Shown piece by piece: positions 5,605-36,669 of a DNA stretch of 64,000 bases. Every line of letters starts with the position of its first letter. Within the stretch, counting starts at the first letter, position 1. The notes under the pieces are model-generated. The model searched no databases and was not told the origin of the DNA. It worked only from the letters and a program-made list of their open reading frames with translations. The DNA comes from Haplosporangium gracile (lineage: Eukaryota > Mortierellomycota > Mortierellomycetes > Mortierellales > Mortierellaceae): positions 1 through 64,000 of the forward strand of contig JAAAUF010000021.1 in assembly GCA_015499985.1 (NCBI GenBank), written 5' to 3'. Both the position numbers and the translations under genes were made by a program.

Positions 5605-8148
5605 GGTAGTAGTAGACGGTAGCGGTATGGCTGTTGAGGATGTGGTTATCGTTGCTTGTTGTGGTGTGTAATGTGCCGAGAGAAATTGGTGTTTCGGGAT
5701 GAAAGAATGTGAAGGGTTATAAACAAAATGCAAGTGAGAGAGGGGAGAGAAAGAATGCAATAGAACTAAATGTGAAAGAATGAAGTGAAAGAAAAGACGG
5801 GAGTATGAGTAAATTGGCTTGCATGGGCAAAAATGAACTGCCTATTTTTTCCAGGTAAGAGTCCTTTGTCTCCTTGAGGAGCTCATTTGTGTTTCCATGT
5901 GTCTCGACTAATCGACTTGCTTACTGTACCTTTTGATTCGAATGAAGAAAAATGAAATTGTGGTGAGCACAAGAGGACGAACGGATGGCGGTGGAGGGTG
6001 ATGTCAACAAAACTCCAATCAATTTGAGGGAGGACCGAGTGTCAAAAAAGGCCTTGGTGAGAAGCAGCGAAGGAATAAAAAATCGAGCGACAGAAGACGC
6101 GAAGTAGGAGAGCAGCGAGAGAAAGCGGTTGGAGAGGGGTGGTGGGTGGGATAGTAGTACGGAAATTTGAAAGTTTTTTCCCTTGGCTTTTTTTATGCTT
6201 TGTGTTTTTTTGTGGTTGCCGAGAGGAAAAGGGAATCGAGTCCCTCTTTTTATTTGTTTTTTTTTGTGTTTAGTTGGTGTGGTCCTTCTTCATGGGGGTA
6301 TCACACGCATGCACACACGCACGCACGCAAACGGTCGAGTAAGGTTCATTTTGCAATTCTCTGCTCTCACTTGTTGAATTGTCTGCCATGACCAGCTTGA
6401 GTTTGGTCGAAATTTGGGTTGGTTGTTTCCCAAGTTCATTTTTAGTTTGAGGTAAACCATAGTCTAACAATGACAATTATCGCCCGACGCTGACATTTCA
6501 TTCTCACACGCCTCACCTTGATATGTGGGATGGGTAAGTAAATGCGAGTAATCACCACATATTCCGATTTTGAATGAATGAATGAATGAAAGGAAGGACG
6601 GACGGGCGGGATAGGATGAGCTTGCGTGATGATACCCCATTAAAACAAACCTGCGGCTGTTTATCCCCCGACCAAGAGAAGAGGAGACTGTAGGGTGGGG
6701 ACTTGTCGAGAGATAGGGATTACAAGTGGGTGTGTAAATGCCTCAGCTTTCCTTTCAAGCTGAACATCGATCGCTCGCAGCGAAACTTGACCGACAGGCG
6801 AGTAATGAAACAGATGAGTCGAGTCAACCCGCCAACACGTAACTGAATGAACGAATGAATGACATGGATAATGAATGAATGCTGTTGGTTTTCTTTGGTT
6901 GGGCGCAAGTATTCGCATACCAAAACAAAACACATCGTTCTGGCCATGGATCGGGTTTAGGTTAATGGGTAATGTATGAACCGATGAAACAATAGAAATG
7001 ATGAAAGATGAAAGCCTGGATCCCTTGAAAAAAACACAATGACCTTTGGCAAGAAACAACAACAGGTAACAACAAAAGACGAAAGATAAAGGAATGGAAT
7101 AGAACAGAACATGTGCAAGTGAGCCGAGAAGCGGTGTCTTTTGGATGATGTATTTCTTGAACCGTTTCTTCCATCCCGATCCTTTTTCATCTCGTGGCCC
7201 CCGGCTTGGAAAGACGACGACTTTATCGTAATTGAGTGCTTAGAGTCTATCTCCGCAGGTCTATGAGTGGGGTAAGAAACAAAGAGGAAGGTCGGTCCGT
7301 TGTTTTACGGTCCGTTTCGTGAAGGACACCGACCGTTGAGACGCTCTCAATTTAGAACAAATGTGTTGTACTTTATGTGTTGTAGTATTCTTGTTCCTCT
7401 TTAATCAATAGAGCATTCAATTAACTCAATCAGTTAAAAATTTCTGCAGTCGTAGAGCTTAAGTCTGATGGACGGTTTACGTTAATTTGCGATGTTAAAA
7501 TTATTCCTGGAATAAAAATAAAAACAATCGAGCATTCTAAACAGCCCATTGTGTTGTTTTTTCTTCTCTTTGTATTATAATGTCCATCCGATGTCATTTC
7601 TTTTTGTTTTGTTTTCTTTTTCACTTTTTCGCGCTTCTCATTTCCTTTTTCTTCATTTCTCTATTCATTATTACACATGTGCTTTATTGCGCACCAAGGT
7701 AAAACATAACCGCCCTTCAAGTCTATTCTTTCTCTACTTCAGCTACCATCTTTTTGAAGACAAAAATCTCTCTGTTAACGGATAAAAAAATAGCACCAAA
7801 GTCAACCGCAAGATCTTTCGGCCTCTGCGCAAAAAAAAAGGAGACCAATGATGGCAACATTGCATCTGAGACGGACGCCCAATGGACCTGGTCTAATTCC
7901 TCATCTTGTCGACGCCTTGTCTCTCCCCCTCGGGCCATTTGTCTTCATCAGCATACCCGTGTTTGAACTCATACTCGCCGGCCTACTTTTTCTTCATACT
8001 CTTTTTTCTTTATTTTTCAGGGTCTCTTTCGCACTAGTTTCTTCCAGTCCAACATAAAGCGGGCACTGGCATTTTCGCTTTCGGCATTTTTTTAATTTTT
8101 ACTTCACTCCCGTTACACACTCAACGCATCAACAACATAGATACAACC
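5605..8148. other. 2.5-kb intergenic region between divergent FAR and P450 genes
   Basis: No coding region supported. Short open frames are Phe/Ser/Lys-rich and lack recognisable motifs. It holds a CACACG-type microsatellite near 6305-6330, GAAT repeats near 6573-6592 and 6847-6880, and many poly-T/poly-A runs. It must contain both divergent promoters. No tRNA seen by eye. Confidence 0.6.
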
Positions 8149-9920
8149 ATGACTCTTGTGGCCTTAGTTGAGAAGGCAACCCACCAATCTGCCGCCTCAT
8201 TGGCAGTGACCCTGTCCGCCATCATTACTTACGTCTTCTACAAGTCCTGGCTTTACCCCTACTACCTCGATCCGCTCTCCAAGATCCCCGGCCCCATACC
8301 CTCAAGGATCCCTTTCCTCGGAAACATGCTGGCCCTGACCAAGAAAAAGCCCATGATGGCCCTCTACGACTGGGCAATGGAGTACCCCGGATCGATCTAC
8401 CGCTACTATTGGTTCTCGCGACTGACCCTCATGACCTCGGATCCCGTCACTGTCGGCTATGTCCTTGGGAAGGGCAACGATAACTGGTTAAAGAGTAAAG
8501 GGACCGAGGAGATGTTTGAGCAGAACTTGGGCCATTCGCTCCTGTCGATGAAGGCGGGTGAGCACGCGTCGCACCGCAAGTACCTTGCAAAAGGGTTCAA
8601 GCACAATTACCTGAAGTCCATGGCTACGGCCTTCCATAGTGTTGCCCAGGATCTTCTCGAAGTCTGGAAGGAGAGGCTTGACGACAAGGCTGAGCAGAAG
8701 AAGAATAAGGGAGAAGTGGTACGATGGGAGCGTCATGACAAGATCTACACCACTATCGATCTCGAACCCTCGTTCTACTGCTTGACTCTGGATTCCATTG
8801 GCCAGTTTGCTCTCGGACGCGGATTCAATGCCATCAAGTCCCCCATCGGTTCTGATTTCGACAACTACAGGATCATTGTCGACTCTTTCCAGGTGACTCT
8901 GCTGACTATGCTGCCCCTGTCCAACTGGATCCCGACAAAGACCAACCGCCGTGCCTGGAGCGCCGTCCGAGAGTTCAACTCATCCATGGAGGGCATTGTC
9001 CAGGAACGGAAGCAGAGGCTCCTTGAGGAGATCAAGGCTCACGACGGAGAGTTCTCACAGGAACAGGGGGCGACCAGTCAAAAGAAGGATATGCTGACGA
9101 TGCTTTTGGTCGACCAATTTCTTGGAGAAGGCAGTACTGATCTTCAGATCCGACATGACGTCTTTACTGCCATTTTTGCGGGGCATGAGACTACCTCTGC
9201 GGCTCTGTCGTGGGCCTTCTACCAGCTTGCTTGCCACCCGGAGGTTCAGACCCGACTTCGTGAAGAGACCCGCGAGCTCTACAAGGACCATGAGGGTGCT
9301 CCCTCTTATGACGAGCTCAACTCGCTCCCTTACCTGAACGCTGTCATCCGTGAGAGTCTCCGTCTTTGGTCCCCCGTCCCTGTAAGTCCCTGGATCTGTT
9401 ACTTTGATGGACAATCTCGGAGGACGAATTAATTGTAAAGTTCATTTATTTACCAATCGCATTTCAATTTTTCATTGCATTCAACTAGCTCAACCTCAGA
9501 GTTTCGGTCGAAGATGACCACCTCCCCCGCAACAATGGCCTTGCACCCCTCTTCGTCCCCTCAGGCACCAACCTCCAGATCCCCATGTTCATCCTCCAAC
9601 GTGACCCGAAGATCTGGGGCTCCGACTCTCTCTCTTTCAAACCCGAACGCTGGCTCACCACCGACAAGGCATCGCCTTGTCCACCGTACTCTCCACCAAA
9701 CGGCCTCTGCTATTTCCCTTTCTACCACGGAAAACGCAGCTGTGTCGGCAACAAGATCGCGACACTCGAGATGAAGACTCACATTGCCAATCTGATTAAT
9801 ACGTTCGAGTTTGTGGAGACACCCGAGTTGAGGGCGAACCGGAGTGAGATTGATTGGAGATGGTCGATTAGTTTGAAGCCTTGTCCTGGAGTCAGGTTGG
9901 GTGTTCGACTTGCTGATTGA
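8149..9920 (+). CDS. Cytochrome P450 monooxygenase
   Basis: Heme-thiolate monooxygenase anchored in the ER by an N-terminal hydrophobic helix (about residues 15-35), followed by a Pro-rich hinge (KIPGPIPSRIPFLGN). Two exons, 8149-9381 and 9489-9920, give 554 residues. The I-helix oxygen-binding motif AGHETT is at 344-349, the K-helix ESLR at 402-405, and PERW at 463-466. The heme loop FYHGKRSCVG is at 489-498 with Cys496 as iron ligand. All catalytic motifs are intact. The general look is that of CYP4/CYP5xx-type fungal enzymes acting on fatty acids or hydrophobic substrates, but subfamily and substrate cannot be told from motifs. A polyadenylation signal lies 47 bp after the stop. Its neighbours are the UbiA-like gene and, further off, an ABCG exporter. 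Confidence 0.95.
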
Positions 9921-10274: not shown

Positions 10275-11406
10275 TTAAGAGAAGGTGCGCATGGCAGTCT
10301 TGGGGACGCCGCTCCAGACCTTGATAGGAACAATGTACATGGTAAGAAGAGTGATAAGAGTGCAGATCAACTCTACAGTCTTGTGCCCCTTGGGTGCAGT
10401 CTCTCCCTCGGCCAAGGGGGTGCCGGGGGCACGCTGCTTGGCGAAAAGGACAATGACGGTGAGGAGCAAGAAACCCAAGAAGGGCCACATGATGATCTCA
10501 ACAGCCATCACATACGAAGCCCAGGCACCAACGACGACCGCGAAAAGGATCATCAAGAAAGTCTTAAACTTTCCATAGGCGATCAAGTAGGTACCGAGGG
10601 CAATGTGGGCAGTTGGGTCGAGCTTGCGGCAGACCTCGAAGGTAAACGAGCCTCCAAACTGCAAGAGAGCCGCGTGCCAGGCGAGGATGTTCTTGAGGGA
10701 TGAGGCGCCGTGGAAGGCAGCGATGGGGAAGAGGATCATGAGGAGCACGACGAGTTGGTGGGTGATGACATAGAGAATTGGACGGGCGCTCAACCAATGC
10801 CCACAGCCAAACTCCTTGAACATGGCGTAGTAGTAAGCGGTGGTTGCGATGCAGAGGAGACCGCAAGCGAGGTTCTCGACGATAGCGAGGACAACGCCGT
10901 TAATTAGGAGGATCGCGACGAGAGTGTGAACAACAATGTTGGCCTCTCGGGCTGTGACGAGGCCTCGTGGCAAGGGGCGTTCAGGGTGAGCGAGAATATC
11001 CTATTCAAGGGTAAGAAGCCAGCATGGGGTTAGTTGGTAAATTCAGTGTACCACAAATATTGTTTCGCTGTACATGGGCGAAGAAGGGAAAGGAGGGGTA
11101 TAGACATACAGTATCGACATCCTTGAGATCGTCCATGACTCTGAGGGTGACCAAGAAGAGGGTTTCGATGACCAAGGTCCAGAAGAATTGACGGAGAGGA
11201 AGGTCCTTAGATCCGTTGGTCAGACAGTAGTTGGCGGTGAGGACATATCCTGCTGCCGTTAAGAGGTAGATAAAGAGGGCGATGCGCTCCGAGAAGAACT
11301 TGAACCAGGCCTTGTACCCTGAGAACTGGACAAAGATGTCGACCTGCCGGCTGCTGGCCGTGGTCGAGACTGAAGTCTGGGATTTGTTTTCTTGTTCGAC
11401 TTTCAT
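10275..11406 (-). CDS. UbiA-superfamily (prenyltransferase-like) integral membrane protein
   Basis: UbiA proteins transfer prenyl or related groups within membranes using Mg2+ bound by Asp-rich motifs. Two exons, 11406-11110 and 11000-10275, give 340 residues with about eight or nine hydrophobic segments. The first Asp motif runs MDDLKDVDTD (residues 91-100) and is followed by HPERPLPRG, a hallmark of one UbiA subgroup. The intron splits this motif between Thr99 and Asp100. The second Asp-rich motif is not canonical; FEVCRKLD (220-227) sits about where it would be expected. The substrate is unknown: polyprenyl quinone, terpenoid or lipid head-group chemistry are all possible. It converges with the P450, with 354 bp between the stop codons. 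I am confident on superfamily, not on activity. Confidence 0.8.
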
Positions 11407-13492
11407 GGTTGTTGTATGTGACGTGTCGTTTATGTTGATCGGTGTGAATCAAGATTCAGGTACGAAGAAAAAAGAAAGAAGAAATACAAAAGAAAAGAGG
11501 AGCGACGAGAGGAAGGAGGGCGAAAGAAGTCAAAGAGGAGAGGAAGCTTGTTCAAAAACAATTGCAAGATTGGTCATGAGAGTCGATTGATCCAGTCGTA
11601 AGTACGGATGTGTGTGTGATCGTTAACGCTGTGGGGGCGCTGATGATGTATGCAATGATGACAGACAAGGGACAAAAAAAGAACGAGGATGTTTGTCAGC
11701 CGATTGAAGAAGGACGGATTGCGAAGGATATGAGTGAAACTGAAGAAGGAGGAGAGTAAAGGAGAGTAGAAGAGAGGAAGAGAAGGCGAAGGAGAAGGAG
11801 ACAAAAGAGAGGAGAAATAATCGCCGTACTCTTGTCTGATCGCATAAAGCAGGCCGACATGCATGCTGTTGATTCATTCATTCATCGCAGGTACTCCAAG
11901 AGGACTGTGGGCAGGGGAACTCCTCCATCAAGCTCATCCTATTTCAAACAAGGCAAGTCTGAAATCGATAAGTCCAGTCAACAGGAACAAACAGCTCACA
12001 GACATTTTGATTTTTTATTAGGTCCGGACTGAACGGTGAATGAGTGCATTAAAGTAATGAATACGATGCACGTCCGATATTCAATATAAACATCATTGTC
12101 GGCAACATCAACAACAAAAAACAAACAATTTTGAGAGCAGACAAGAAAATTCAACAACAGAAGGAAGCAACACATAACATGCACATGTTTGTGGAAGAAA
12201 AACAACTTTGAATAGACTGTATTATCACCAACCCCTTACTTAACTTAACTAAGCAGAGTGCATTGGGCTCTAATTTGAAAGTATGCAGACAGTTCGTTGT
12301 TTTTGTTGTTCTTCACGAATGTGCTAAAAATTGGACAATTCAATTGTTACTCTTATTTCTTTATCAGCAACGTGGTACCTTGGGTCAGTGTGAAGCTAGT
12401 CCGCAGTGTGTCTTTCAGCATCATCACCAGTCTCTTAACCCGTTGGAAATCCCTTTTTCATCATTTTCTGTCGCTCGTTCTTGTTTTCAAAAAAAAAAAA
12501 ACAATGCAAACGCATGTGAAGCGATTAATATTTGACGTAGGCACTTCTGCTGACAATTAATCATTCATTCGTTCATTCGTGTCCTCGTCATCGTCCAATC
12601 TTCGAAGCTATTGGCGCCTTCATATCACTTCCAGATACTTCTTTACATCTTGTTCATGCTCTACAAGCCCGGCGACATTTCCTTCTGTTTTTATTGCATG
12701 ACGGAAATGTTGGCAACGCCCAAACACACGAGTTAAATGGCGCAAGAAAAAAAAGCCCCATCATTCAAAGTCCATTTCATGTCGCCATTGCGGCAGTCAT
12801 CTGGCCAGTCTAGTAGCGCATGCATTGGATGATAAGAGAGGCGATTGAGAGGCTAACAGCAGTGTGTTGTGGCCAGGGTGTGTGTGCGAATAATGTTTGA
12901 TGGAATGGGGAGTTTTATTCTCTTTGGTTATTCTCTCTGGTTATGCTCCCATGAGCCACCATCATTTGCTCCTTGATAAGGATGTTCATTGTTTTTTAAA
13001 GTTCAGTATTCTCATTTTTTCATGCTTCTCAGCGCAAGAACTGCCTGTACATGTATATGGGCTGAGAGGCAGTACCGTGTTACAAGATTACACTTGTCCA
13101 AAGTACGGACTTTGATCTTTATTTTCTTGACTGTTCAAGATAGAGGGAATTAGGGGACACTGACCATTCATATTTTCAAACGACCGCTCCTTTTGCTCCT
13201 TCGTTTCTTTTTCTTCTCTTCTCCATCCTTCTTTCTCCACCTTTTCTTTTTCTTTCTTTTTTTTCTTCTCCTTTCCGACTCTTTCTCACTTTCTCTTCCA
13301 TCCCTTCTTGCTACTTCTCCACACAGTAGTCGTCCTTCTTATTTAACGAGTCCTGTTCCATTTCTCTTCTCTCTTTCATCGACCAACTTCAACTCTCCTC
13401 CTGCGCTCCTCTTTGTCTTGTAAATACACCGTCAGTCCTTCCTTTCTCATCGCACCTAATATTATACCCTCACACACACAACAACAACAACG
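11407..13492. other. 2.1-kb intergenic region between divergent UbiA-like and ABCG genes
   Basis: No supported coding region. Purine-rich stretch at about 11460-11560 and 11720-11815; long pyrimidine-rich stretch at about 13180-13480. Small open frames here are low-complexity. It should contain both promoters. Confidence 0.55.
13180..13492 (+). promoter_or_regulatory. Pyrimidine-rich core promoter/5' UTR of the ABCG transporter
   Basis: Strongly C/T-biased for roughly 250 bp on the coding strand, then a short ACACACAACAACAACAACG leader directly before the ATG at 13493. CT-rich blocks followed by CA-rich leaders are common upstream of well-expressed fungal genes. No TATA box was identified with confidence. 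Confidence 0.4.
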
Positions 13493-15828
13493 ATGAACAC
13501 TGAAAAGATCACCAACGGGTCGAATGCATCCATCTCGACTGGCTCGTATGTCCAGGGTGACGCCAATGTCCCCTTCATCCCTGCTTCGCTCACTGTCTCC
13601 AAACTTCAATATGAGATCACTGTCAAGCAGGAGCTGAAGGAGGGCGAGAAGAAGAGCCTCTTCAAGAAGCAGCCTGATGTCCAGCGTGCCATCCTCTCCA
13701 ACATCGATGCCAAGGCCACTCCCGGCCGTGTCCTCGCCATCATGGGTCCCAGTGGATCAGGTGTGCCTCTTTGTCTTCTCGTCTCTCTTTGCCAGTCAAT
13801 GATAATAATTTCAGATTTTACTTATCCTTTTCCTTGCTATACCCCTTAAACAATAATTTTACCTCATAGGCAAGACGACCCTTTTGGACCTGCTTGCTGA
13901 TCGTCAGGCACGCAACGTCGGCAAGATTCAGGGCGACATTCTCCTGAACGATGTCCCCGTCAAGCAGTACGGCTCCATCCGCAAACGTCTCGTCGGCTAT
14001 GTCACCCAGGAGGATGGTAACTATCTGCGACTCATCACGTACACGTTTCATCTCTCATTTTTATCTTATTCTTATAACAGCAACACACTGACATCCAATG
14101 TATCAATCACTACCTAGACTTCATCGAGACGTTGACGGTCTTGGAGACACTCACGTTCGCCGCCAAGATGAGACTCCCTCGCGCAATGTCCGTCAAGGAC
14201 AAGCTTGCCCGTGTCGATGCCGTCATGGAGGAGCTCAACCTGACCCACATCAAGAACACCAAGGTCGGAGGTGCCGTTATCCGCGGTATCTCTGGAGGAG
14301 AGAAGCGTCGCGTCACCATCGGTATCGAGCTTCTCTCCAGCCCTAGTGTCTTGCTCCTCGATGAGCCCACCTCCGGTCTCTCCTCGACCGATGCCTTGAA
14401 CGTCGCCAACGCCATCAAGGAGCTCGCTCGCAAGGGCCGCACTGTCATCCTGACTGTCCATCAGCCTCGCTCTGACATCTATGAGCTCTTCGATGACCTC
14501 TTGTTGTTGTCCAAGGGAAAGGTCGTCTACTTCGGGAAGGCTCAGGAAGCCGCCTCGTACTTTGAGGCCCTTGGCCATGAAGTCCCCGTTGGCTGGAACG
14601 TTGCCGATTACTTCTGTAAGTTTTATCTCACATCGTTTGCACATCATAATATCCGTCTTCAAGTTATGATTAATCTGTTATTAACACTCCATACTTTGAT
14701 GTTTTGCTTTGATCGTACGCAGTGGATCTTATTACTCTGCACGAGGATAAAATCCCCAACGAGGGATCCTCCTCGTCTCACGAAGACTTTGCCCAAAAGT
14801 ACGCCAGCTTCCTTGCCACCAACCCCAGGGCATACTTGACCGAGCTCCTCCAGAAACACCAGAATGACTCTGAAAAGAAAAAGGACGATGCTCTCTTGGA
14901 TCAGTTCAAGAAGGCCTACACAACCGAGTACGCCACCACTACCTTGACCCAGACTTTGTTGCTCACTCAGCGTAGCTTGACCAACTTGGCCCGTCACCCC
15001 ACCATCTTCCAAGCCTCTGCTTTTATCCATATCGTCTTTGCGCTAGTCATTGGTTCCTTGTTTTCAGGACTCAAGGATCGCCCCGAGATGGGTGCCACCA
15101 GCTTCAACAAGTCTATTGCCTTGTTCTTCATCACATCTTTCCTCGCCACCATGACCTTCTCCGCTATGCCTCAGTGTAAGTTGTATACCTCCTTGGAAGT
15201 TGATGCATTCCTCAACTGGTAATAGTACCTGTTCTAACCTGTCATCTTCTCTCCTTATTTTACAATAGTCATTATCGAGCGTAGCTTGTTCTTGAGAGAG
15301 CGTGCCGCAGGAATGTACAGAACCTCATCTTACTTCCTCGCAAAGACCATTGTCGAGACCCTTTCCTACACCGTCCTCTCTGTCATCTTTGTCGTCATCA
15401 CCTACTTCCTTATCGGCCTCAAGGGGTCGCTGATCTATTACTTTGTTGCCGTCGCCGTCTTTGTCAACGTTGCCCTCTCCCTCATCGCTGCCATTGGTGC
15501 CGGTGCCGAAAACGCGGAGGTCGGCATGAACCTGCTCTCGCTCATCAACACCATGGCCATGTTGTTCTCAGGCTTCATTGTCAGCAGAATCGATATTCCC
15601 CGCGGCTGGATCTGGGCCTTCTGGGCCTCGTACTACCAATGGGCTTTCTCGGGCATGCTTGGCAACGAATTTGATGATGGCTCAGTAAAGGGTATTGCTA
15701 CCCTGCAGTACTTTGGCATGGCTGACTTGGACTGGTTGACCAAGTGGAGGGCTGTCATTATCCTTGTCGGATACTACATTTTCTTTCGTATCATCGGCCT
15801 CTTGCTCCTCCTTGCCAAGAAGGCTTAA
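13493..15828 (+). CDS. ABCG (White/WBC-type) half-transporter
   Basis: ATP-driven exporter, probably of lipids or hydrophobic compounds, working as a dimer in the plasma or an internal membrane. Five exons: 13493-13760, 13870-14016, 14118-14615, 14723-15175, 15269-15828, giving 641 residues. The order is nucleotide-binding domain first, membrane domain second, the reverse topology of the G subfamily. Walker A GPSGSGKT is at 85-92, signature ISGGEKRRV at 196-204, Walker B LLLDEP with Asp220/Glu221, and the H-loop His253 in VHQP. The membrane half has about six helices; the hydrophobic segments from about residue 410 onward are clear. ERSLFLRERAAGMYR is the typical ABCG intracellular loop. At half size it is not a full-length PDR pump. 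All ATPase residues are intact. Confidence 0.95.
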
Positions 15829-15920
15829 ATTGTCCCTCTTCTTTCTTTACACATATCCTCCTGCCCACTTTCTCCTTTTATGATAGCTTCGCCTTCACCG
15901 TAATACATGGGCTTCCACCA

Positions 15921-15926
15921 AATAAA
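15921..15926 (+). terminator. AATAAA polyadenylation signal of the ABCG gene
   Basis: Hexamer followed by an A-run, 93 bp after the stop codon. Confidence 0.55.
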
Positions 15927-16605
15927 AAAAAAATAGCTTTTGTCACTTTTTGACCTCTTCACTTCTCATATGCGATGTAGTAATGAAAAGAAATGGCTGA
16001 TATACATGCAAGAAACACAGAAAACGTCGTTTTATTACTACCTATCTTCCTAAACTAGACAACAAAAACCATGCTTCGACTGGCAAGACCCTGGGCCAAT
16101 GACAAACAGCCCAAGCAATCCATACTCTTGCCTGTTCACATATCCTGACACTGAAATTGGGCCCTTCGAGAAACTCAACCTTTTGATCCCGCTTTCCATC
16201 CTAATCCAGTCACTAGAGTCTCGCATGTCTGTCCAGTTGTTTTCCTGTTCATTGTCTTCCAGGTATCGGCGGAAAGCAGAAAAGAAAAAAAAACCCCTCC
16301 AGGTGAAAAGGCAAAACGTTTGCAGCCCAGAATAAAAAATCTGCTTGTAAATAACCAATGCCTGCAGTGATTTCACGTTCCTTGTCCTTGAATTCGAAAG
16401 ATCCCAATGCCTTGGCTAAGTTTGTCCACGTGTTTGATACAAAGAAAAAATCTGAAAGAGAACATTGACTATTAGGTTGGTAAGCCCAGCGTTCCCCTTT
16501 GCAAACAATCGTTGCTCAAAAAGCAAGAAGCAAAGCAAAAAATAAGACAAGAATATAAAATTCAGTTACTTTTTTTGTACGAGCTGTTTGAATGTGAAAA
16601 AATAA

Positions 16606-16611
16606 TTTATT
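16606..16611 (-). terminator. AATAAA polyadenylation signal of the fusion gene
   Basis: TTTATT on the plus strand, about 100 bp beyond the minus-strand stop at 16710. Confidence 0.5.
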
Positions 16612-16709
16612 GTTACAGTTGAAGGGGAATTGCTATGTATATGTTATGATATGTGTGTGTTCGTAATGTGTATATGTGCTGGTTCGTTTTAAAAGTCGTC
16701 GCCTTAAGC

Positions 16710-19700
16710 TTAAACAGCAACGGGAGCAATCTCAGCCTGATCTGTAGCCTCACTATCAGCCGAAGCAGCAGCAGCACCCTCCTTCTCCAAGGCCTCGAGC
16801 TCGTCTAAAATGTAGACTTTACCCTTTCCAGCATCCATCTTGATGCGCATTCCCGTCTTGAGACGTTTCATCAAGCCACCCGAGATGCCAACAATAGTAG
16901 GTAGACCCAACTCACGAGCAACGACGGCCGAGTGACTGAGCAACGACCCACGCTCGATCAACAGACCCGAGCACATCGGGTAGAGAGGAACCCAACCGGG
17001 ATCAGTTCTGGCAGTGACCAAGATCTCACCATCGAGGTCCTTAGTTTCGGAGATATCCTTGGCGACACGGACGACGCCTTCTACAATTCCGGGGCAGCAC
17101 GAGACACCCTTGAGGACACCGGGCTCTGGCGGTCCGTTTGAGTCTTCGGCATCCTTGAGGAGATCCAGGTCAGCGAGGATGTGAGGGTACCACATGTAGA
17201 CACCAGCGGCACCACGGGTAACAAAGCGCTCGGGGGGTGCGTTGGCGTCGGCTACATAGCCTGCAAACTCAGTCTTGCGGAGCTGGGTCAAGGCCTTGAG
17301 GTCACGCGAGACTGCACGACCATCGACGTACGAGAGCAGCTCCTCGGTGGTGAGATAGAAGACATCGCTCTCGGCGTCGAGGGCACCCAGGGCGACGAGA
17401 CGATTGCCCATACCGCGGAAGATACGACGCATGACACCGAAGACTTTGGAGCGGGCGAAACGGAGGTTCTCGCGATGCTTGACGACACGGCGGGTGTTGC
17501 GGAGGAGCCAGAGGAAGAGCTTGAGCTGAGTGCCCTTGAGCTTCTGGTGGACCAGAGCCTCGGCGGCGGCACGGATCGCCTGCTCGCGCTTGTCGAGATC
17601 GTCGACCTCGTAGGCCTTGGTGCGGACATATCCAGCAATAGCGTTGATCACAAAGTCTATTTTGGTACAAAAGAAAACAATGATGTTAGTCTGTGCGTTA
17701 GAAATAATCAGAAAAAAAAAAAGAACGAGAGAGAAAGGATGATACATACCAGGATCGTCATTCAAGTCTTTCTCTTCGAGCTTGAGCTCGTTGATGCAGC
17801 GGAATCCATAAGAGTCCAAGAACTCGAGGATCATGGCCAAGACATCCGCCACGACCTGGACAGGAGGGTGAGGCTTGTCAGCTTCGGTGACTTTCAATCC
17901 AGCTAAGAGCTCGCTGGCCTTGACAAACGAGAGCTTGAGGATGGTCGAGCGCAAGATCCACTGGTTCTCCTCGGGCTTGATGGCTTTGAGGACCTGATCC
18001 TTGTGTCCAATGAACCAAGTGCCCAGCTCGGGATACTCAATCGTGGTGTCAATTGTCTTTGCAATCTCCATCAACATCTTGGTGGGCTTGGCCGACTCGA
18101 CATCCTCACCGCAGAGAAGATCGTTCTGGAGAGAGTCGACAGCAGCGGTATCGGCAGCGGCAGCAGCAGCCTCGGCGGCAGTGGGGGCAACAGCATCACC
18201 AGTCGCAGGGGCGGCCTTGGCATCAACAAGGTGCTTGGCAATGAAGGACTTAAGGGTACCAAAGAAGCCCATGACCAACAAGTCGTTGATGACAGGGGCT
18301 TTCCAGTCGCGCAGGAGAGCACTGGCGTTCTTCTTGTAGTAGAGGGAAATCTCCTCCAAGGACATGGAAGTAAAGTTCATCTCGCGTCCGGCGCTGTAGA
18401 AGGCATCAAAGTTGGCAAAGAACTTGTTGACGATGCGGTCAATGTTGCGGTAGGCCGAGATGTACTTGAGGACAAGATTGGTACGGTGCCAGGCGTTAAA
18501 CTTAGGGCGAGCCTCGAGAATCTTCTTGAACTCCTTCTCCATGTCGGCGTTACCATCCTGACCCTGCTTGACACCCATCATAGTCTCCATGTGTTTGGGA
18601 TCCGAGAACTTTCCAAGGGGGGCGAGCAATAGGAGGCGGTACCAGTTCATGAGGTTGTAGTAGACGTTACCACGGACGTAACCGAGCAAGTTGATGAGAG
18701 CATCCTCGTTGGCCTGGACGAGCTTGGTGGGGGTACCCAAAAAGGTGAGCATGGTCTCGTAGACGATGCGGTAGTTGTACGAGGCAAAGGAGAAAGTCAA
18801 GGGGGTAGTGACTCCAGAGTAGGACTCGACAATGTTCGAATTGTCCCACAAGGTGACGTTCATGCCCTGAGGAGCAGCCAGAGAGTCCATCGCACGGTTG
18901 GCGATTGAGGAAAAATCAATCTCGTCGCCCTTGTTCTTGCCCTTGAACTCGGTACTGGAAGCAGACGTCTGGACCGAGATGTGAGACTCACCTAAAGTCT
19001 CGGATGAAGCCTCAGACTTGGAGGCAGGGTCCGTGGCGGCAAAGAAGGCAGCTGGAGGAAGGTTGACGATAGGACGGACCTGGAGACAATACAGCATACC
19101 GTCTTCCTCCTGGAAAGCCCACTCGAAATCAACAGGCGTGCCGATCAAGGCCTCCAATCCACTGACGGTGGTTCCGACAGCTCTGGCACGGTCGTGGGTT
19201 AAGGCCGCAGCACTGGCTTTGGGCTCGGGGACATCAACAGCGACTAATCCAGTGGCATCAGCACCGTCGGCATCACCACCGTTGCGAACCCACATCTTGG
19301 GTTTGGGAACCAGCGTCTCCTTCACCTTGCCCTGGAATCCGCGCTCGACCTCGAACGAATCTGGCTCGGCAGCACCACTGACAAGAGCCTCGCCTTGACC
19401 CCAGACAGCCTCGACTAAAGCGACGTTGGCACTAATAGGGTTCAATGGGTGACGAGAGAAGGCAACACCGGCGCACTCAGAATCAACCATGATCTGGATA
19501 ACAACACCCATGCGGACATTGTTCACGGGGAGACTGCAGGCAAGACGATGGGACATGACACGAGGAGCAAAGGCGGACAGCCAGCACTTCTTAAGGGCAG
19601 TGATAATGTCGTCCATAGACTGGCGATACAGGAACGAGTCGAACTGACCGGCAAAGGAGTGCGAGACAGAGTCCTCATCGGCACCAGACGAACGAACGGC

Positions 19701-22554
19701 AAAGTAGGGCTTGGAACTGGAAGCAGAAGTCGAGGTGGAGGTAAGGAACTCGACCAAGGCAGTGATCTCTTGGGTCATCGTGGGCGACAAGGGAGCAGCC
19801 ATGACCTTGCTTGTCAATGCAGCATGGAAGGCATCCAAACCCTCGGGGGTGGTGATATGGGGGGAGATCTGAGAGTCGAGGTGATTCTCGGCCAAGAAAG
19901 CCTTGAAGGCCTCGGTCGAGACACAGAACCAGGCAGGGACAGTAGCGCGGACTCCAGGGACTCTGCTGACCAAGTTGGTGAGTGTAGCCATGTTCTTAGC
20001 CTTTCCTCCTCCATACTGGGCCAGCAAGGGGGATGGGTGCCAGGCAAACAAGAAGTGGTTCTGCTCTGGGTTCGAGAACTTGAAGCGCTGCTCAACAGGG
20101 ATCGAGGAAGGAGCGACTGCATTGGCGAGGGCGTTGCGGGCGTTGAGGTCATGGGCGCTGGCAGAGTATTTGAACGAGGTCGAAGTCATGCCACGACGGA
20201 GACTGTCGTTCACGGATCCAGTAATGTCGCCACGCTGAACGATGACCTTGTCTGAAGCCTTCTTGTCCTTGATCATCTTGCTCAAAGCCATGGTGTTGAT
20301 CTTGGAAGCATGGCGCTTGTCCCTGGGGAGCTTGCGGAAGACGTGAAGTTCATCAACAGGGACATCAAAAGTTTCCTGAAGATGCTCAAGAATGAATGTA
20401 TGAGCAGTAAGAGCAAGACCGTTGGGTGCCTCAACAAAGAGGGCAGGCTTCTTGGCAGCTCCAGATGGCATGAAGACGACGTAGGTGACGCCGTGAGAGG
20501 CACCAAAGGTTTCGAGAACAGAGCGTTCGATAGCGATGGGCCAGTAGTGGAGCGAGTTCAAGCTGCCCTCGACGCCTTCCTCGGCATTCTCTTTGATGAC
20601 CCACGAAGCACGTCCGACCAACCACAAGCGGTGGGCAGAGTCCAAGTATCCACAGTCGCCAGTGCGGAGCCAGATCCTGTCCTTGTTGCCGTTCTTTTCA
20701 GAGGGGAGCTCATGGACAATGCGATCATCATCGGAGGTGGTAGTGATATGGACATGGGGGCCCGAGACAACGATCTCACCGATGTGACCAAGCTCCAAGA
20801 ATTGCTGTCCCTTGATTTCCTCACCTTCCAAGGGCACAATAGCGGTGTGAGCAAATCCGCCATCCAGGTTGACATGACCGACGCAGAGAGCATGGATGTT
20901 TCCTCCCTCGAATTCGGATCCTGACTCTGCAGGGACATCGAGCTGTGTGATCTTGGAGCCCTTCAGCTTGGGAGCGGAGGTAGGGTTGGCCTCGAGGAGA
21001 ATGCGCTCCTCGACACGGATCTTCGAGATAGGCTCGGCCTCACTGGCACCGTAGAAGATGAACGCAGCACCACGGACACCTCTGCGCATGATATCGAGCT
21101 CTGACGAAAAGACAGGGGCTCCCCCTAAGCAGAGCACACGGACGGGGAGAGGGTTGGTAAACTTGCCATACTGATCGACACCGCTGGTGGCCTCGAGGTG
21201 CTGCAAGAGACGGAGGAAGAAGGCAGGCGAGCCAAAGGCGACCTGGACGTTGTGACGGATCATTGCCTGGAGGAGTGGGCCAGGGTTGACGCCGGCAGGG
21301 TTAAAGTTGTCGGGGATGAGAGTGGTGTATCCAAGCATAATCTGGCCAAAGATGAAGACGGGCAGGTTGGTCACCGCCTTGACGGGCTTGTGCGAGGCGA
21401 CTGTTGCAGGTGTTGCTGTTGATGCGGGGTCGGACTTTGATGATGATGATCCTTTTGCAGCGGCGGGGAGTTCTACACTGGAGGCCTTAATTTCCTTTTG
21501 GCAGAAGACGGCGATGGTCTGGGCGCGGAGGTAGTCGTGGGAGCGACGGATGGGCTTTGGGTTGCCGGTCGATCCTGTGGTGAACGAAAGAAGGGCGGCG
21601 GTATCTCCAGGGACGGATGTCACAGGGATGGTCTTAGGCACCGAAGCCAAAATCTTTTTACTAAGGAGGAGGGAAGTGGTGAAGGGAGGAAATAAAATCA
21701 GAGCTTATTAGCAACTGCACGGCCACAGCACTCGGGCAACAATTAAACAAGAGGTAAGAGGACTTACTCGACATTGACAGGGATCTCGACAACGTTAGGA
21801 ATCTTCTTGAGGGCAGGTACCGCTCTCGAGAGGATCCACTTCTTGAACGCCGTCAGTTTCATGTTGGTGACAATGTGGCTGATGGGCAAGACAGACTCAA
21901 TACAGACATTCATCTTTGCTCTTTCCATGAAGGGATCCAACAGGATCAAAGTAGCGCCCAACGACAGACAGGCAATAGATCCAACAAAGAAATCAACTCC
22001 CAACGAAGACAAAATCAAGACTTTGTCTCCCTGAGCAAGGGGTTTGCTGCCCTTGGACTTGAAGGCCCCCTCCTGAGCCAAGACCTGGGTGAAATGACTG
22101 ATTCGACTACAGAGCTCATCAAATGTCACTGCAGACTTGCCAGGTTCTGTAAAGATGAAGCAGTCAGGGGAGGGTTCATTGACTGGGAGGCTGTTGCGGA
22201 AGTGGACAAACATGGCGTTGAAGAGACTACACAGGTTTCCATTCAGCTCTTCTGCGGTCGGTGGGCGGTGGAGGGTCCATCGAAAGATATCTGGGAATCC
22301 TCCTGAGAGAAAGTCGTGAAGTTGTGAGATGGCGATTGTTTTTGCAGCTGTAGCAGGGCCCGATGCGGATGCGGGGGTGATCTATGTTGTTCCATGGTAT
22401 GAGATTAGGGTGAGATGTTTGTTAGTCCTTGCAATACTTTGGCGGCATTGATGATGGTAACAAGGTGCCAGGAAAGGAGGTGGAAAAAAGTGACTAGTGT
22501 TCCACAAAAGATCAGAGATGTATGTCTTCTTACCTCATTGACGGAGGGGCTCAT
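16710..22554 (-). CDS. Adenylate-forming (ANL) domain fused to a PEP-synthase/rifampin-phosphotransferase-like module
   Basis: Four exons, 22554-22534, 22381-21768, 21660-17750 and 17656-16710, give 1830 residues; the first exon encodes only seven. Residues 1 to about 670 form an AMP-binding adenylating domain: TTGSTGNPK (239-247), YGASEAEP (415-422), LRTGDCGYLD (543-552) and a candidate catalytic Lys665 in HASKIN. The layout resembles OleC/fatty-acid-CoA ligases more than NRPS domains; no carrier domain is seen. Residues from about 735 form an ATP-grasp PPDK_N domain: GGGKAKNM (762-769), AVRSSGADEDS (866-876), AGVAFSRHPLNP (942-953), LQVRPI (1071-1076). A central region starts with NIVESYSGVTTPLTFSFA (1154-1171). 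The C-terminus is the PEP-utilizers swivelling domain with catalytic His1757 in SLLSHSAVVARELGLPTIVG. The PEP-binding TIM barrel of true PEP synthase is absent, as in rifampin phosphotransferase. Substrates are unknown. Confidence 0.88.
17657..17749 (-). other. 93-nt stop-free, frame-preserving intron in the fusion gene
   Basis: Bounded by GTATGT and ATAG on the minus strand. It is a multiple of three and has no stop, so an unspliced transcript would still encode the whole protein with 31 extra, mostly hydrophobic residues. Splicing joins NDDP to DFVINAIAG. I favour splicing because the sites are good and the inserted peptide is low-complexity. Confidence 0.75.
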
Positions 22555-29925: not shown

Positions 29926-31453
29926 TTAGAGGCGGGCCATGGCTCGGCCATGAGAGCGATGGGCAAGCACTTTTTGGCGCTGTTGGTCCCAGCACATCTG
30001 TGGACGTATATTCTGTTGTCGTTGCTGTAGGGAGTCGGCGTTGAGCGATGGTGATGACGATGCTGAAGCAGGATGCGCTGTTCTGCTGTTGCTACTGCTC
30101 TCTGTCGACCTGAGTGATGCCCCAGGAAGAGTGTGTGCCTCGGCAGCTTGTATTTGTTGTTGTTGTTGTTGTTGGCTTTGCGCAGAGTGGACAACAGTTG
30201 GTGCGGGGTGGTGTATGTAGAGACGGTAGACATGACGAACGCTCTTTCCTCCGACGCGTTCAGAGATTGATGCCGAATTCTCGTTCATGAGGGCACAGGC
30301 GACCTTGGTGCATCCCCAGACATCGCGGGCACGTTTCATCGTCTCCAGCAGTGCAAAAGCAAACACTTTGGATTTTCTGACCCGGGGCACAAAGCCGACA
30401 GTCTTTAGGACAAGCGTATCATTGTCCTCTACCCAGCATGCCATGTATCCAACATCCTCTCCGTTCTGCGGGTCGACAATGAAAGAAGAAAGATCGAGGA
30501 GGGAGGTGTTGTCAACTTGAAGACGAGAGATCATGTCGTTGAGGACGATCTGGCGATGGTTCTGGCGTGTGAATCCTTCGTCAAAGAGCTCCTTTCCTCG
30601 GAAGAGCTCGATCGTGAGGTCATAAATGCGTTTGGCAACATTGTCCTGGGGTGTCAAGTAGGGGTGTCGCTCAGGGCTGAGGGAGGATGCAAAGTCGAGG
30701 GTATTCCAGAACTGCATACCGAGGTGGATGTTGTCGAGGGTCTCTCCGCGGGTGTAGTTGATGTATCCGTTGATGATGCTATCAATGTGGAAGAAGGTTG
30801 AGTAGTAGTCTGCAGCCTTGACAAACCCAGCCTATGTGTTTTGATATGTTCGATGTAAGGCAATGTCAGTGCTGTCACTAATGCAATTTGATCACAACGA
30901 GAGCCTTAAGGGTGATTTAAGCAAAATAAAAGTACTAAGCAGTAAAAATTACCTGCGCAAAGCACGCCTGGTAAAACTCTGGGTGTCTGGGCTCAAAGGA
31001 CATAGAGGGGGCCTCATCGGTGTCGACACGAAGTCGGTACTGAAGCCAGGTTGTAAGGTTGACAGGTCCAAGAATCTGGCGCACAGGCTCAAACTGGCGC
31101 ACACCCCCGTGTCTCAGCCACTCAATCGCGGCCTTGAGGACAATGATTCCTGCCCTCTCGTTTTTGGCCTCAAAGAGGCCCACATAGCCGACAGAGGTGT
31201 CTGACATGACTGTGTTGGCACCTGCACAAGCGACAGGGCGGTTATTGTCGTCATAGAGGATCCAGTACTCTGCAAAGACGTTGGGCAGAGCGGTGGTGAG
31301 GAGTTGGGTGACAAGGGTCGGTTGGGTGCTGTCCCTGTGAAGCGAGATAAACTGTGAGACGAATTGAGGCTTGTTGTAGACGGCTGACATAGGCAGAGGC
31401 ATGACGATGCGCTCGCTGTGGTTATTGATGGTGTATCCAAGGTTGGTCAACAT
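29926..31453 (-). CDS. GNAT-like N-acetyltransferase-fold protein with Gln-rich tail
   Basis: Two exons, 31453-30953 and 30831-29926, give 468 residues. The central part reads as a GNAT-like fold: NNRPVACAGANTV and VGYVGLFEAKNERAG resemble the beta-strands and acetyl-CoA loop. GPVNLTTWLQYRL, then EPRHPEFYQACFAQAGFVKA followed by YYS, matches a bacterial-type GNAT-like family that I recognise only by general pattern. A second region (residues about 330-390) has VGYMACWVEDNDTLVLKTVG, V-R-K-S-K and ALLETMKRARDVWG, suggesting a second GNAT-like half. The last 90 residues are low-complexity with a seven-Gln run. Substrate and role are unknown. The start at 31453 is chosen because it directly precedes conserved-looking sequence. 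The long spacers on both sides leave its context uninformative. Confidence 0.75.
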
Positions 31454-33309: not shown

Positions 33310-34668
33310 ATGTCCTCAGCAACAACAACTGCAGCGGAAGCTCAGACTTCTCTTCCTCTTCACATCCGCATCTTCTCGTCTTTCATTCAATTTTACCACC
33401 AGTCCTTGGGCCGCAAGACTGTCCAGTCCGGCAAGGATGCCACTGTCGAGGCTACCGTTGACTTTTCCAAAATCAGATACTCTCAGGTCTGGGAGGATAC
33501 CCGCCTTCTCCGTCAGGGTCTCCATTTGAAGCCCCAGAGCCGTGTCCTCAGCATTGCCTCTGCCGGTGACAATGCCTTTGCCCTCTTGCTCGATGATGCA
33601 CGCGAAGTCGTCGCCATCGGTAATCAAACCAAGCAATGTTCAAATTACCAAGACAAAAAAATGTTTTCAGTGAGCATGACGCAGTTTGCTAACTAATGTC
33701 AAATATACATGTACCAAATAGATTTCTCTCCTGCTCAACTGGCTCTCTGCGGGTTGAAGATTGCAGCATACAAAACATTGAAATACGAAGAGTTCACCCA
33801 GCTGCTTGGATTCGAGTTTGCTGGCGAGGACATTGGCGCCGATGGTCGTGTTGCTCTTTACCAGGACAAAGTTCGCGCTGCGATCGTCAACGACGACCAC
33901 CGCACCTACTGGGACGAGAACCTGGACTTGATTCGCAACAAAATCATCCACATTGGCCGTCTTGAAAAGTTCTTCAGCATCTACCGCAAGTACGTTGTCC
34001 CTCTGAGCCACTATAAGTCCACCGTCCGCACCCTCCTCTCTGCCAAGGACCAAGCCAAGCAGATCAAGTTCTTTGACTCTGTCTGGAACAAGTGGATCTG
34101 GAGGGCCGGCACCCGCGCCTTCTTTGGCCAGATGTCTCTTGGTCATCTCGGTCGTGATCCCAAATTCTTTGAGCATGTCCGCCTCGACGTCGGGGCGTTC
34201 TTGCTCGAAAAGGTCAGCAACGGTATCCGCAATATCCCCATCTGGGATAACTACTATGCCGAGTACGTCTTCACAGGGCAGCAAAGCGGCAACAACGGTC
34301 TTCCCGACTACCTCGTCAGGGAGAACTACGAGATCATCCGCTCTAGGATCGATCGTGTCAAGCTGGTCCATGCCGATGTCTTGAAGTATCTCAACTCGGA
34401 GGAAAGTGGTCACTTTGACGGATACAACCTCTCGGACATCTTTGAGTGGATGAGCGAGGACCTCTTCAAGACCTTCCTAACCGCCATCCACAACAAGGGC
34501 ACTCCCAATGCCCGCATCTGCTACTGGAACCTGTTTGTGCCCCGAGAGAGGCCTGAGGACTTTAAGCACTTGATCCACTCCGAGGTCGACCTTGCTGATG
34601 CTGCCACCGCCAAGGATCGCACATACTTTTACCGCCGCTTTGTCATCGAAACCATCTTGAAGAAATAA
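33310..34668 (+). CDS. DUF3419/BtaA-like S-adenosylmethionine 3-amino-3-carboxypropyl transferase
   Basis: BtaA-type enzymes move the aminocarboxypropyl group of SAM onto diacylglycerol, the first step to the betaine lipid DGTS, at the ER or lipid-droplet surface. Two exons, 33310-33619 and 33722-34668, give 418 residues. Family signatures are IRYSQVWEDTRLL followed by VLSIASAGDNAF (SAM-binding region) and VVAIDFSPAQLALCGLK. Near the C-terminus, NLSDIFEWM and ARICYWNLFVPRERP also fit the family. In many fungi and algae the BtaA half is fused to a BtaB N-methyltransferase in one Bta1 protein. Here it stands alone and no methyltransferase gene is in the window, so the product could be an unmethylated or different lipid. 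No membrane helix is obvious. Confidence 0.85.
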
Positions 34669-35050: not shown

Positions 35051-36669
35051 TTACAGTTTGGATTCTTGAAGGACCTTGTCATTCGATGCACGCATGGACC
35101 CCATGCGCTTCAATTGTTCTTCGATAGTGTTCAGGATACGAGGTAACCAATTGACCTGCTTGAACGAATTCGAGACACCATACATGGCAACACGAAGGGC
35201 AGCAAAGTCCATGAGCGCAATCTTGGCCATCTCCATGTACTCGCGCGGCGAGGGGAAGACGATCGCTGCTGATCCGGAGGCGCGGGGTTGAGACTTGTAG
35301 GCGGCTTTGAGGGCGAGGCGGTGGTACTCAATGTAATGAGCCCATTCGTTGGAGCCGGGTGGGAGGACAAAGGAGAGGAACTCGACGACGTCTCGTTGTG
35401 GAAGGTGGCAGCATGCCAGTTCCCAGTCATAAGCACACAGCTTTTGAGCGCCGGTGCTTGGATCCAGGCGCAGGCAGATGTTACGTGTGTTGAAATCACC
35501 ATGAATCTAGAGATGAAAAAAACAATGGAAGATTAGTCGATGCGCGATGCTTCGCTAACAACAGATTTTTTAAAAAAAGGGCGGCAACTTGATGTGTAAC
35601 TTACAAGGGTCCTTGGACTTTTCTCGACCTTGGCCCAGTATTCATCCGAGTGCTTGAGAAAGTCAAGCATGCTGTCGGTGAGTAACTGAGAGAACAGCGC
35701 GGGTTCGTTCTTTCGGTTGGTCCTGACCATGGCCTCGTATGCAGGTCGCAACAGCTTCATGAGCGATCGGGTAGGTGTCTCAAGAAAAGTCATCCCCAAG
35801 ATACGATCCTCTTGACCCAAGAACTGAGCATGGAACGACGCCAGATCGCGCAGGACTAAGTGGATGTCGTTTGAAGACCAAGTCGTAAGGGCGGTGTCGG
35901 TGCTGTTCATGTGTGTGATGTTGCCCAGAGAGGGGTTGAGGTATTCGAGACAGAGGGCGTAGAGTTGTTGAGAGTCGTTGCGGAGGACGTTATAGACTTT
36001 GGTCGAGATATTCTCCATTGCGCCGCCAACCTGCCATGATAACTCTGCGAGCTCGATTTCCCGGATGTGGCTGTTGCGGAACCCTGTTTGATCCTTGACC
36101 AAGTCGTATTCTTCTGCAAATTCGCCGCCCTGAAGTTGGGCCATGATGTTAGTGAGTTCGATCAGGGCAGTGTCGATGGGCTTGGATTTGATGACGACGT
36201 AGAGCTGGCCGTCGTTGTGATTGTTGGATGTTGATGTGTGGTAATAGTTTTCGACACGACTAGTGGTCGAGATGGAGAGGGAGTCATGGGACTGTGGAGA
36301 GGAGGACGAAGAGAGGATGGATGGATGTATGCGGGCCTCGAATTCAATCCGGTAGAGAAAATGACCGGTCATATCGTTCATCGGGCACGGTTCCTCACCG
36401 TGACCGCTGTTGACGCTTGTACTGACGGCTGAGAGGGAACCAGCATGGTGATCATCTTTTTCACTGGAGAAATGCTCGTCGTCTTCATCCTCATCGTCGT
36501 CGCCAGAGATAATATTGCTAAGGATACTGGCTGAAGAGTCCAACTCTTCCTCACTCCAGCTCTTGGTCAGGGCTCTGTTGGGACCGTAGGCACGGTCGAG
36601 GATGGTCTGGAAAAAGTCTTTGTTGAGGAGGGACCTGTTCATCCCGGTCTTGAACATTGCGGTCGTCAT
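35051..36669 (-). CDS. APH-fold (aminoglycoside/choline-kinase-like) small-molecule phosphotransferase
   Basis: Two exons, 36669-35605 and 35506-35051, give 506 residues. The Brenner motif HGDFNTRN (357-364) supplies the catalytic Asp359 and metal-binding Asn364. AYDWELAC (381-387, Asp382) is the second metal Asp, replacing the DFG of protein kinases. RDVVEFL follows, as in APH/EcK-type kinases. The N-terminal lobe is interrupted by an acidic and Ser-rich stretch (about residues 45-150) that is probably disordered, making the protein longer than typical members. The substrate could be choline, an amino alcohol or a xenobiotic alcohol; the sequence does not say. The ATG at 36669 is the first in the frame. 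It converges with the DUF3419 gene, and a choline-like substrate would fit a betaine-lipid neighbour, but that is speculative. Confidence 0.82.

Follow-up and report, generated by a model that had tools for sequence, protein, structure and literature searches.

The rifampin phosphotransferase (RPH) and the two-component dikinases HpeHI, CreHI and PpsAB are built from an ATP-grasp domain, a substrate domain and a swivelling histidine domain, convert ATP to AMP and transfer phosphate to a hydroxyl group. For the RPH-like HpeHI, AMP was the predominant nucleotide product, a conserved histidine was required and aromatic hydroxyl compounds were phosphorylated, according to PMC12167813. The same three domains make up the C-terminal half of a protein encoded on contig JAAAUF010000021.1 of Haplosporangium gracile (assembly GCA_015499985.1), of which positions 1 to 64,000 (the window) were analysed. 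Unlike in RPH and HpeHI, they stand behind an adenylating (ANL) domain, score far below the RPH cut-off and occur in a biosynthetic gene context. ANL enzymes form acyl-AMP; OleC, one of them, makes beta-lactones. The fungus carries a counterpart of a bacterial operon, with the ANL and RPH genes fused. With moderate confidence, the fusion protein is read as a bifunctional enzyme with two ATP-to-AMP activities, acting in one pathway with the products of the neighbouring genes.

The fusion gene was modelled with exons at 22554-22534, 22381-21768, 21660-17750 and 17656-16710 (reverse strand; features in Table 1). The introns of 152, 107 and 93 bases are all GT..AG; splice sites were picked by eye and are backed by homologues of equal length. 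The earlier note on this DNA had proposed a single in-frame ANL-RPH gene of 1830 amino acids, and the exon model agreed exactly, with the joint of the two halves inside exon 3. This exon covers about 3.9 kb within a 1664-codon open frame, so no intron there could split two proteins. Two separate genes or a splicing error were ruled out by this single open exon and by the conserved order and length. Bacterial contamination was ruled out by the introns and by fungal housekeeping-family exons on the same contig, which matched MMS19 (MMS19_C), CAND1/TIP120, POM152 and M1 peptidase.

The motifs and the domain order that had been named (AMP-binding, PPDK_N, PEP-utilizers) were recovered by Pfam and motif scan. 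The AMP-binding domain scored 80.5 bits against PF00501 (cut-off 29.9) and, with the motifs TTGSTGNPK (amino acids 239-247), YGASEAEP (415-422) and LRTGDCGYLD (543-552), belongs to the ANL superfamily. A C-terminal lysine motif follows downstream of the Pfam domain at amino acids 657-667, with D.RH..K itself at 659-665. By Pfam and motifs the RPH half has the order of the wider RPH-type dikinases, namely ATP-grasp domain (motif AVRSS from amino acid 866), central domain and C-terminal catalytic-type histidine. This residue, His1757 (codon 16934-16932), is contained in the motif ERGSLLSHSAVV. The functional meaning given to the ANL and RPH motifs is general background on these families. Also as proposed, the chain holds no carrier protein: none appeared in the Pfam listing for the 1830 amino acids. 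PPDK_N had one match in the fungal genome (37.5 Mb, 1157 contigs), the fusion gene.

Orthologues of the same order in related fungi, which the earlier note had named as support, were found. The order ANL P-loop, ATP-grasp motif, histidine motif was present in 31 of 48 protein homologues (P0001-P0028 and P0036-P0038), and the fusion is therefore not an annotation slip. Twenty-six of P0001-P0028 are labelled Mortierellomycota; the relatives with the most informative names come from Linnemannia and Mortierella. P0036-P0038 are 39-41% identical; two are labelled as chytrids (Blyttiomyces, 41%; Chytridiales, 40%), and P0037 has 39%. The remaining 17 homologues were partial models, RPH-only, more distant proteins or proteins of reversed order. 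Relatives from sponges (Sycon, Oscarella, Dysidea, Corticium, Halichondria and Geodia) had the RPH part only, among the best 120 rows. A quick tree was built from 57 selected RPH rows. In it, the rows of Mortierellomycota and those of chytrid type grouped together (support 99), neighboured by the sponges (100) with P0049 and P0050 within. Bacteria nearest to fungi and sponges jointly (100) included operon RPHs of Bdellovibrionota and Caldilineaceae. Ancient inheritance with losses and transfer would both fit this tree, which cannot tell them apart.

The best model for the RPH half was NCBIfam PRK06241.2-2 (NF004881; 1.8e-201, 672 bits), whose cut-off of 883 was not reached; an RPH from a bacterial operon (locus L023) scored 770 bits. 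This model, named 'phosphoenolpyruvate synthase', is an RPH-like subfamily from which the fungal protein differs by its fusion and its score below the cut-off. Source names of the protein ('Phosphoenolpyruvate synthase', 'pyruvate phosphate dikinase') would make it a phosphoenolpyruvate (PEP) synthase or a rifamycin-inactivating enzyme, which is very improbable. It scored 234 bits against PEP synthase TIGR01418 (cut-off 739.75) and 246 bits against rifamycin phosphotransferase NF041857 (cut-off 999), and its context looks biosynthetic. The Pfam listing for the fusion contained no C-terminal PEP/pyruvate-binding barrel, which makes the name PEP synthase misleading. Searches with phmmer matched 5fbs and 5hv1 (about 4e-51), labelled phosphoenolpyruvate synthase in the database; PMC12167813 gives them as RPH structures.

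The prodiginine ligases PigC and RedH are RPH-like dikinase relatives in biosynthesis, are not known to carry an ANL domain and stand in a different gene context. They phosphorylate a carbonyl or enol oxygen for a condensation, and a fungal RPH half of this kind would receive its acylated partner from the ANL half. The NCBIfam models of PigC (1e-69) and RedH (5e-69) matched the RPH half, and the L023 operon RPH more strongly (1e-97 and 4e-101). However, the RPH and PEP-synthase models score as well on the fungal half, all of them far below cut-off, and no pyrrole chemistry was seen in the cluster; a ligase of this type is regarded as unlikely.

For the ANL half, the best NCBIfam model was PRK09274 (9.8e-57, 192 bits, cut-off 478). 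The OleC models NF045786 (6e-28) and NF045785 (4e-24) gave 97.5 bits against a cut-off of 900 and 85.1 bits against 850. The OleC resemblance claimed before was thus borne out insofar as PRK09274 and OleC are the nearest curated ANL models, and did not extend to membership, all scores being under the curated cut-offs. The fungal ANL further differs from them by the fusion. No oleA, oleB or oleD gene was recognised among the neighbours scanned, the scans covering a part of the open reading frames. Solved structures gave only remote matches (best 1.4e-12). The D.RH..K motif also occurs in 43 of 53 ANLs of the bacterial operon. Judged by cut-off, the RPH half is outside PEP synthase, RPH and PRK06241.2-2, and the ANL half outside OleC and PRK09274. 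Judged by anatomy, the halves would work like RPH-type dikinases and ANL enzymes, respectively; the claim of a rifampin-phosphotransferase-like half was upheld by domains, motifs and models.

For the bacterial counterpart, prokaryote genomes were scanned with an RPH alignment, and the best 80 loci of at least 489 relatives were kept. Their open reading frames were clustered by blastp (C0-C8), with family names taken from genes of L023, L021 and L006, and a recurrent operon emerged; a compact example of Caldilineaceae type, L003, comprises DUF3419, ANL, UbiA, RPH and GNAT. RPH (C0) was present in 73 of the 80 loci, accompanied by DUF3419/BtaA-like proteins (C1, 52), ANL (C2, 52), UbiA (C3, 50), GNAT (C4, 49), a membrane protein (C5, 38), 3-hydroxy-3-methylglutaryl-CoA (HMG-CoA) reductase (C6, 24) and cytochrome P450 (C8, 9). 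Restricting the tally to loci of 22 kb or longer (44) gave 42 (C0), 32 (C1), 34 (C2), 31 (C3), 29 (C4), 22 (C5) and 14 (C6). C2 is a blast cluster that includes a few weak profile fits (L019, 90 bits; L041, 77 bits); with a profile derived from P0131-P0148 plus three rows from fungi, an ANL was found in 55 of the 80 loci. All of C1-C6 were missing from 11 loci, four of them contigs below 6 kb (L014, L020, L056, L059) and seven actinobacterial (L033, L034, L045, L051, L052, L057, L081). Three records of metagenome-assembled genomes (MAGs), L019, L028 and L048, contain operon genes under the title Klebsiella pneumoniae or Akkermansia muciniphila. These titles may be wrong, so taxon counts from record titles are unreliable.

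The C4 protein of L023 had no Pfam match at 0.001. That of L003 matched Acetyltransf_1, and its model (mean predicted local distance difference test, pLDDT, 90.9) was assigned by Foldseek to tandem GNAT enzymes (best E 8e-14). C5 is a conserved protein of predicted helical membrane type (440 amino acids, e.g. L023:13649-14977) with E..RK..H, D...AL.G and K..EG invariant in 15 aligned rows. A by-eye reading of C5 as dolichol/phytol-kinase-like was unsupported: no fold match was obtained at E 0.001 (model mean pLDDT 85.4) and no Pfam family over cut-off in four rows, and no function is claimed. In 14 rows of the operon UbiA, the first Asp-rich motif is retained as DE.KD...D. The place where UbiA enzymes carry the second is taken by E..RK, and the enzyme may therefore catalyse something other than ordinary prenyl transfer.

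Operon proteins were then compared with the window by tblastn. Matches lay at 10.3-11.3 kb (-) for UbiA, at 30.2-31.4 kb (-) for GNAT and at 33.4-34.7 kb (+) for DUF3419. P450 and ABC proteins, which are common families, matched too. Genome searches were done with one bacterial query per family. The UbiA query (L018) had its sole match in the UbiA gene of this contig (2.8e-29), as did the GNAT query (L003) in the GNAT gene (1.2e-8). The DUF3419 query (L016) found the cluster copy best (3e-54) and a second copy (C481) next (8.9e-12). The cluster DUF3419 was 37.5% identical to the L016 operon protein over 373 amino acids (258 bits), versus 53 bits against the C481 copy, which by score and length is taken for Bta1. 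Among neighbour open reading frames, the fungal EcKL-type kinase had one relative, the C-terminal half of a fusion protein in L007 (35% over 346 amino acids, 3.5e-59); conversely, this kinase half found only the kinase gene 36669-35051 in the fungal genome. The UbiA, GNAT, DUF3419 and kinase genes lie 5-13 kb from the fusion gene. Three operon families (UbiA, GNAT and DUF3419) are thus present nearby as genome-best matches, which identifies the cluster as an operon counterpart. Under random gene placement, the chance of the three chosen best matches lying within 25 kb is about 2e-9, a guide only, since real genomes are less random and one query was used per family. No match to C5 or C6 was found in the window with 38 C5 and 24 C6 queries at 1e-3, and none to C5 in the fungal genome with one query at 0.01. 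The surrounding cluster, the bacterial operon and a reverse-order RPH-ANL-carrier fusion in Clostridia (see below) go beyond the earlier note. Cluster and bacterial counterpart are the better evidence that both activities share one pathway.

In the proposed mechanism, the ANL half would adenylate a carboxylate, and a nucleophile would then receive the acyl group with no carrier protein in between. The ATP-grasp domain would charge His1757 with a phosphate from ATP, after which the histidine domain would swing to the central domain and the phosphate would be transferred to a hydroxyl (or an enol or carbonyl oxygen) of a small molecule. The fusion would keep the two pathway steps together. That the halves serve one pathway is suggested by their bacterial relatives sharing an operon. 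The DUF3419 family includes BtaA, which transfers 3-amino-3-carboxypropyl from S-adenosylmethionine to lipid. Aminocarboxypropyl transfer (DUF3419), N-acylation (GNAT) and attachment of a prenyl or similar lipid chain (UbiA) together suggest a membrane-linked amino compound, so that the product is probably an amino compound that resembles a lipid and associates with membranes. Both reactions, the shared pathway and the product class are what we infer from this material.

Several observations weigh against this reading. Cluster membership was examined in one fungus, and the kinase was selected only once the window was known. The fungal UbiA and GNAT were nearest to Caldilineaceae and Bdellovibrionota operons, as was the RPH (GNAT also to L007), whereas ANL and DUF3419 were not, so the cluster may not be inherited as one block. 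The fungal branches of UbiA, GNAT and DUF3419 are long (1.8 to 2.6) and their places unsure, with a long-branch warning for UbiA. An ANL query from L018 did not find the fusion in the fungal genome at E 1e-3 and gave two weak matches elsewhere; other operon ANLs matched the ANL half by blastp with up to 1.5e-38. With self-written patterns, the histidine motif was detected in 58 and the ATP motif in 66 of 75 bacterial C0 proteins. The ANLs of L003, L004, L006, L018 and L054 are without [RK]TGD and D.RH..K, and their chemistry may be different. Finally, a fusion may do no more than tether two enzymes, and action of both halves on one substrate in two steps, as the earlier note suggested, is hypothetical. 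The five ANLs just named are short (471-472 amino acids) and stand beside the RPHs nearest to the fungal one.

More tentatively, and with less confidence than the bifunctional enzyme itself, the fusion may be the hub of a pathway whose product would be a membrane amino-lipid of a new class. Its distribution would take in numerous bacterial phyla, early-diverging fungi and, perhaps, sponges. The acid adenylated by the ANL half would then be phosphorylated by the dikinase of the same protein, and the amino-lipid would bear an aminocarboxypropyl group, be N-acylated and contain a prenyl chain or a hydroxy acid. In the open-access literature, which leaves aside most subscription papers and all bioRxiv preprints, no description was found of an ANL-RPH fusion or operon, nor was coupled adenylation-phosphorylation in one protein described there. 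The pathway containing the fusion is apparently undescribed. An oddly named protein of a fungal phylum ('phosphoenolpyruvate synthase', 'hypothetical protein') is thereby assigned to a testable pathway. Of the genes in the window, five are supported as cluster members and about three more are possible. Operon counterparts occur across many bacterial phyla and dikinase relatives in sponges, and there are two modes of fusion between dikinase and adenylating enzyme. The partner genes around the fusion, which resemble those around the separate versions in bacteria, point to an undescribed pathway common to very distant organisms.

The HMG-CoA reductase of the operon bears on the substrate. In L007 it is fused to the EcKL-like kinase (13948-16707) and convergent with an RPH-GNAT pair. 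Its hosts were checked in 25 genomes, many of them MAGs (the 24 loci with C6, plus L007). Mevalonate diphosphate decarboxylase was over cut-off in 3 of the 25, and four more had weak matches of the kind also seen in control genomes. IspG was matched in 20 (19 over cut-off). The five genomes without IspG include all three that have the decarboxylase, the L007 host among them. As IspG is common and the decarboxylase rare, a role of the reductase in isoprenoid supply is improbable for most of the 25 genomes. In most of these hosts it probably makes a building block; this deduction is drawn from decarboxylase and IspG, the two enzymes that the check covered. Mevalonate carries a carboxylate and hydroxyls, as both halves of the fusion would need.

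Accommodating the reductase directly, the ANL half could be a beta-lactone synthetase of OleC type whose substrate is a 3-hydroxy acid, for example mevalonate. A hydroxyl of this acid would be phosphorylated by the RPH half and, in some hosts, also by EcKL. The reductase would then supply mevalonate or a related acid as a building block and not as an isoprenoid precursor. This agrees with PRK09274 and OleC as best ANL models, with the reductase in 24 of 80 loci and its kinase fusion in L007, and with the decarboxylase and IspG distribution (3 and 20 of 25 genomes). It is nonetheless improbable. Both OleC models stay far under their cut-offs (97.5 bits where 900 are required, 85.1 where 850 are), no OleB- or OleD-like gene was recognised among the scanned neighbours, and the reductase had no match in the fungal window and is missing from most loci. 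The substrate of the reductase is putative, many of the 25 genomes are MAGs, four have weak decarboxylase matches, and the L007 host has the decarboxylase.

Fusions of opposite order occur in Clostridia. In L030 (1421 amino acids) and L040 (1444 amino acids) the frame of the RPH extends through an ANL to a carrier-protein motif, whereas in L031 the two parts are separate, overlapping genes. By Pfam, the homologue P0040 has the order PPDK_N, PEP-utilizers, AMP-binding, PP-binding. The clostridial fusions belong to the same operon type and, like the fungal one, join dikinase and ANL in one chain; they differ from it by reversed order, another ANL, a carrier protein and an extra separate C2 ANL, which L030, L031 and L040 each retain. 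The added ANL scored 125-153 bits with the ANL profile against 343-435 bits for the separate ANL of the same loci, and the gap marks it as another type. Among the 48 homologues, reversed order was found in P0040, with all motifs, and in P0042-P0044, in which the ATP motif was not found; the latter look truncated at the front, as the Pfam match, where scanned, begins inside PPDK_N. Taken with the fungal protein, these cases mean that fusion of the dikinase with an adenylating enzyme has occurred at least twice and in either order.

The clostridial proteins suggest that RPH tolerates more than one ANL partner, and the sponge relatives (among the best 120 rows) manage with RPH only. Both would suit a fusion that serves as a tether, holding two enzymes of one pathway in fixed stoichiometry or location while they act on different molecules in separate steps. 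This is a less probable alternative. The bifunctional reading, in which the halves share a pathway, is retained.

Table 1. Positions of the fusion gene, its domains, neighbouring genes and the clostridial RPH-ANL-carrier genes (positions are those of the window unless preceded by a locus).
Feature	Position	Strand	Size and structure	Basis
ANL-RPH fusion gene	16710..22554	-	4 exons, 1830 aa	exon model; order kept in homologues
AMP-binding (ANL) domain	21018..22132	-	aa 91-426; intron 21767-21661 within	Pfam PF00501, 1.3e-22
Joint ANL/RPH	20013..20294	-	aa 668-761, in exon 3	computed from exon model
ATP-grasp domain (PPDK_N)	19062..20009	-	aa 763-1078	Pfam, 7.8e-60
Phosphohistidine swivelling domain (PEP-utilizers)	16821..17033	-	aa 1724-1794	Pfam, 7.8e-18
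UbiA-family membrane prenyltransferase-like	10275..11406	-	340 aa; intron 11109-11001	Pfam, 3.4e-12
GNAT acyltransferase-like	29926..31453	-	468 aa; intron 30952-30832	Pfam, 1.2e-5; tandem GNAT fold of relative
DUF3419 (BtaA-like aminocarboxypropyltransferase family)	33310..34668	+	418 aa; intron 33619-33720	Pfam
EcKL/APH-like small-molecule kinase	35051..36669	-	506 aa; intron 35604-35507	
Cytochrome P450 (candidate cluster member)	8038..9917	+	exons	Pfam, 1.5e-50 for 8038-9429
ABC-2 type (ABCG-like) transporter (candidate exporter)	13460..15828	+	exons	Pfam for 14078-15825
RPH-ANL-carrier	L030:9956-14221		fused	
RPH-ANL-carrier	L040:9956-14290		fused	
RPH-ANL-carrier	L031:9215-13598		overlapping genes	

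Further genes of the window were noted. The cytochrome P450 is a possible member, as P450 genes also occur in the RPH/UbiA/ANL neighbourhoods of L004, L006 and L060. ABC ATPases occur in some bacterial RPH neighbourhoods, and the ABC-2 type transporter is a possible exporter of the cluster. Fatty acyl-CoA reductase-like exons were located close to the cluster at 3611-6289 (-), with PF07993 at 4280-4846 and, at 3611-4234, a match to PF03015 that did not reach its cut-off. The region 349-3439 (+) encodes asparaginase domains and, after them, ankyrin repeats.

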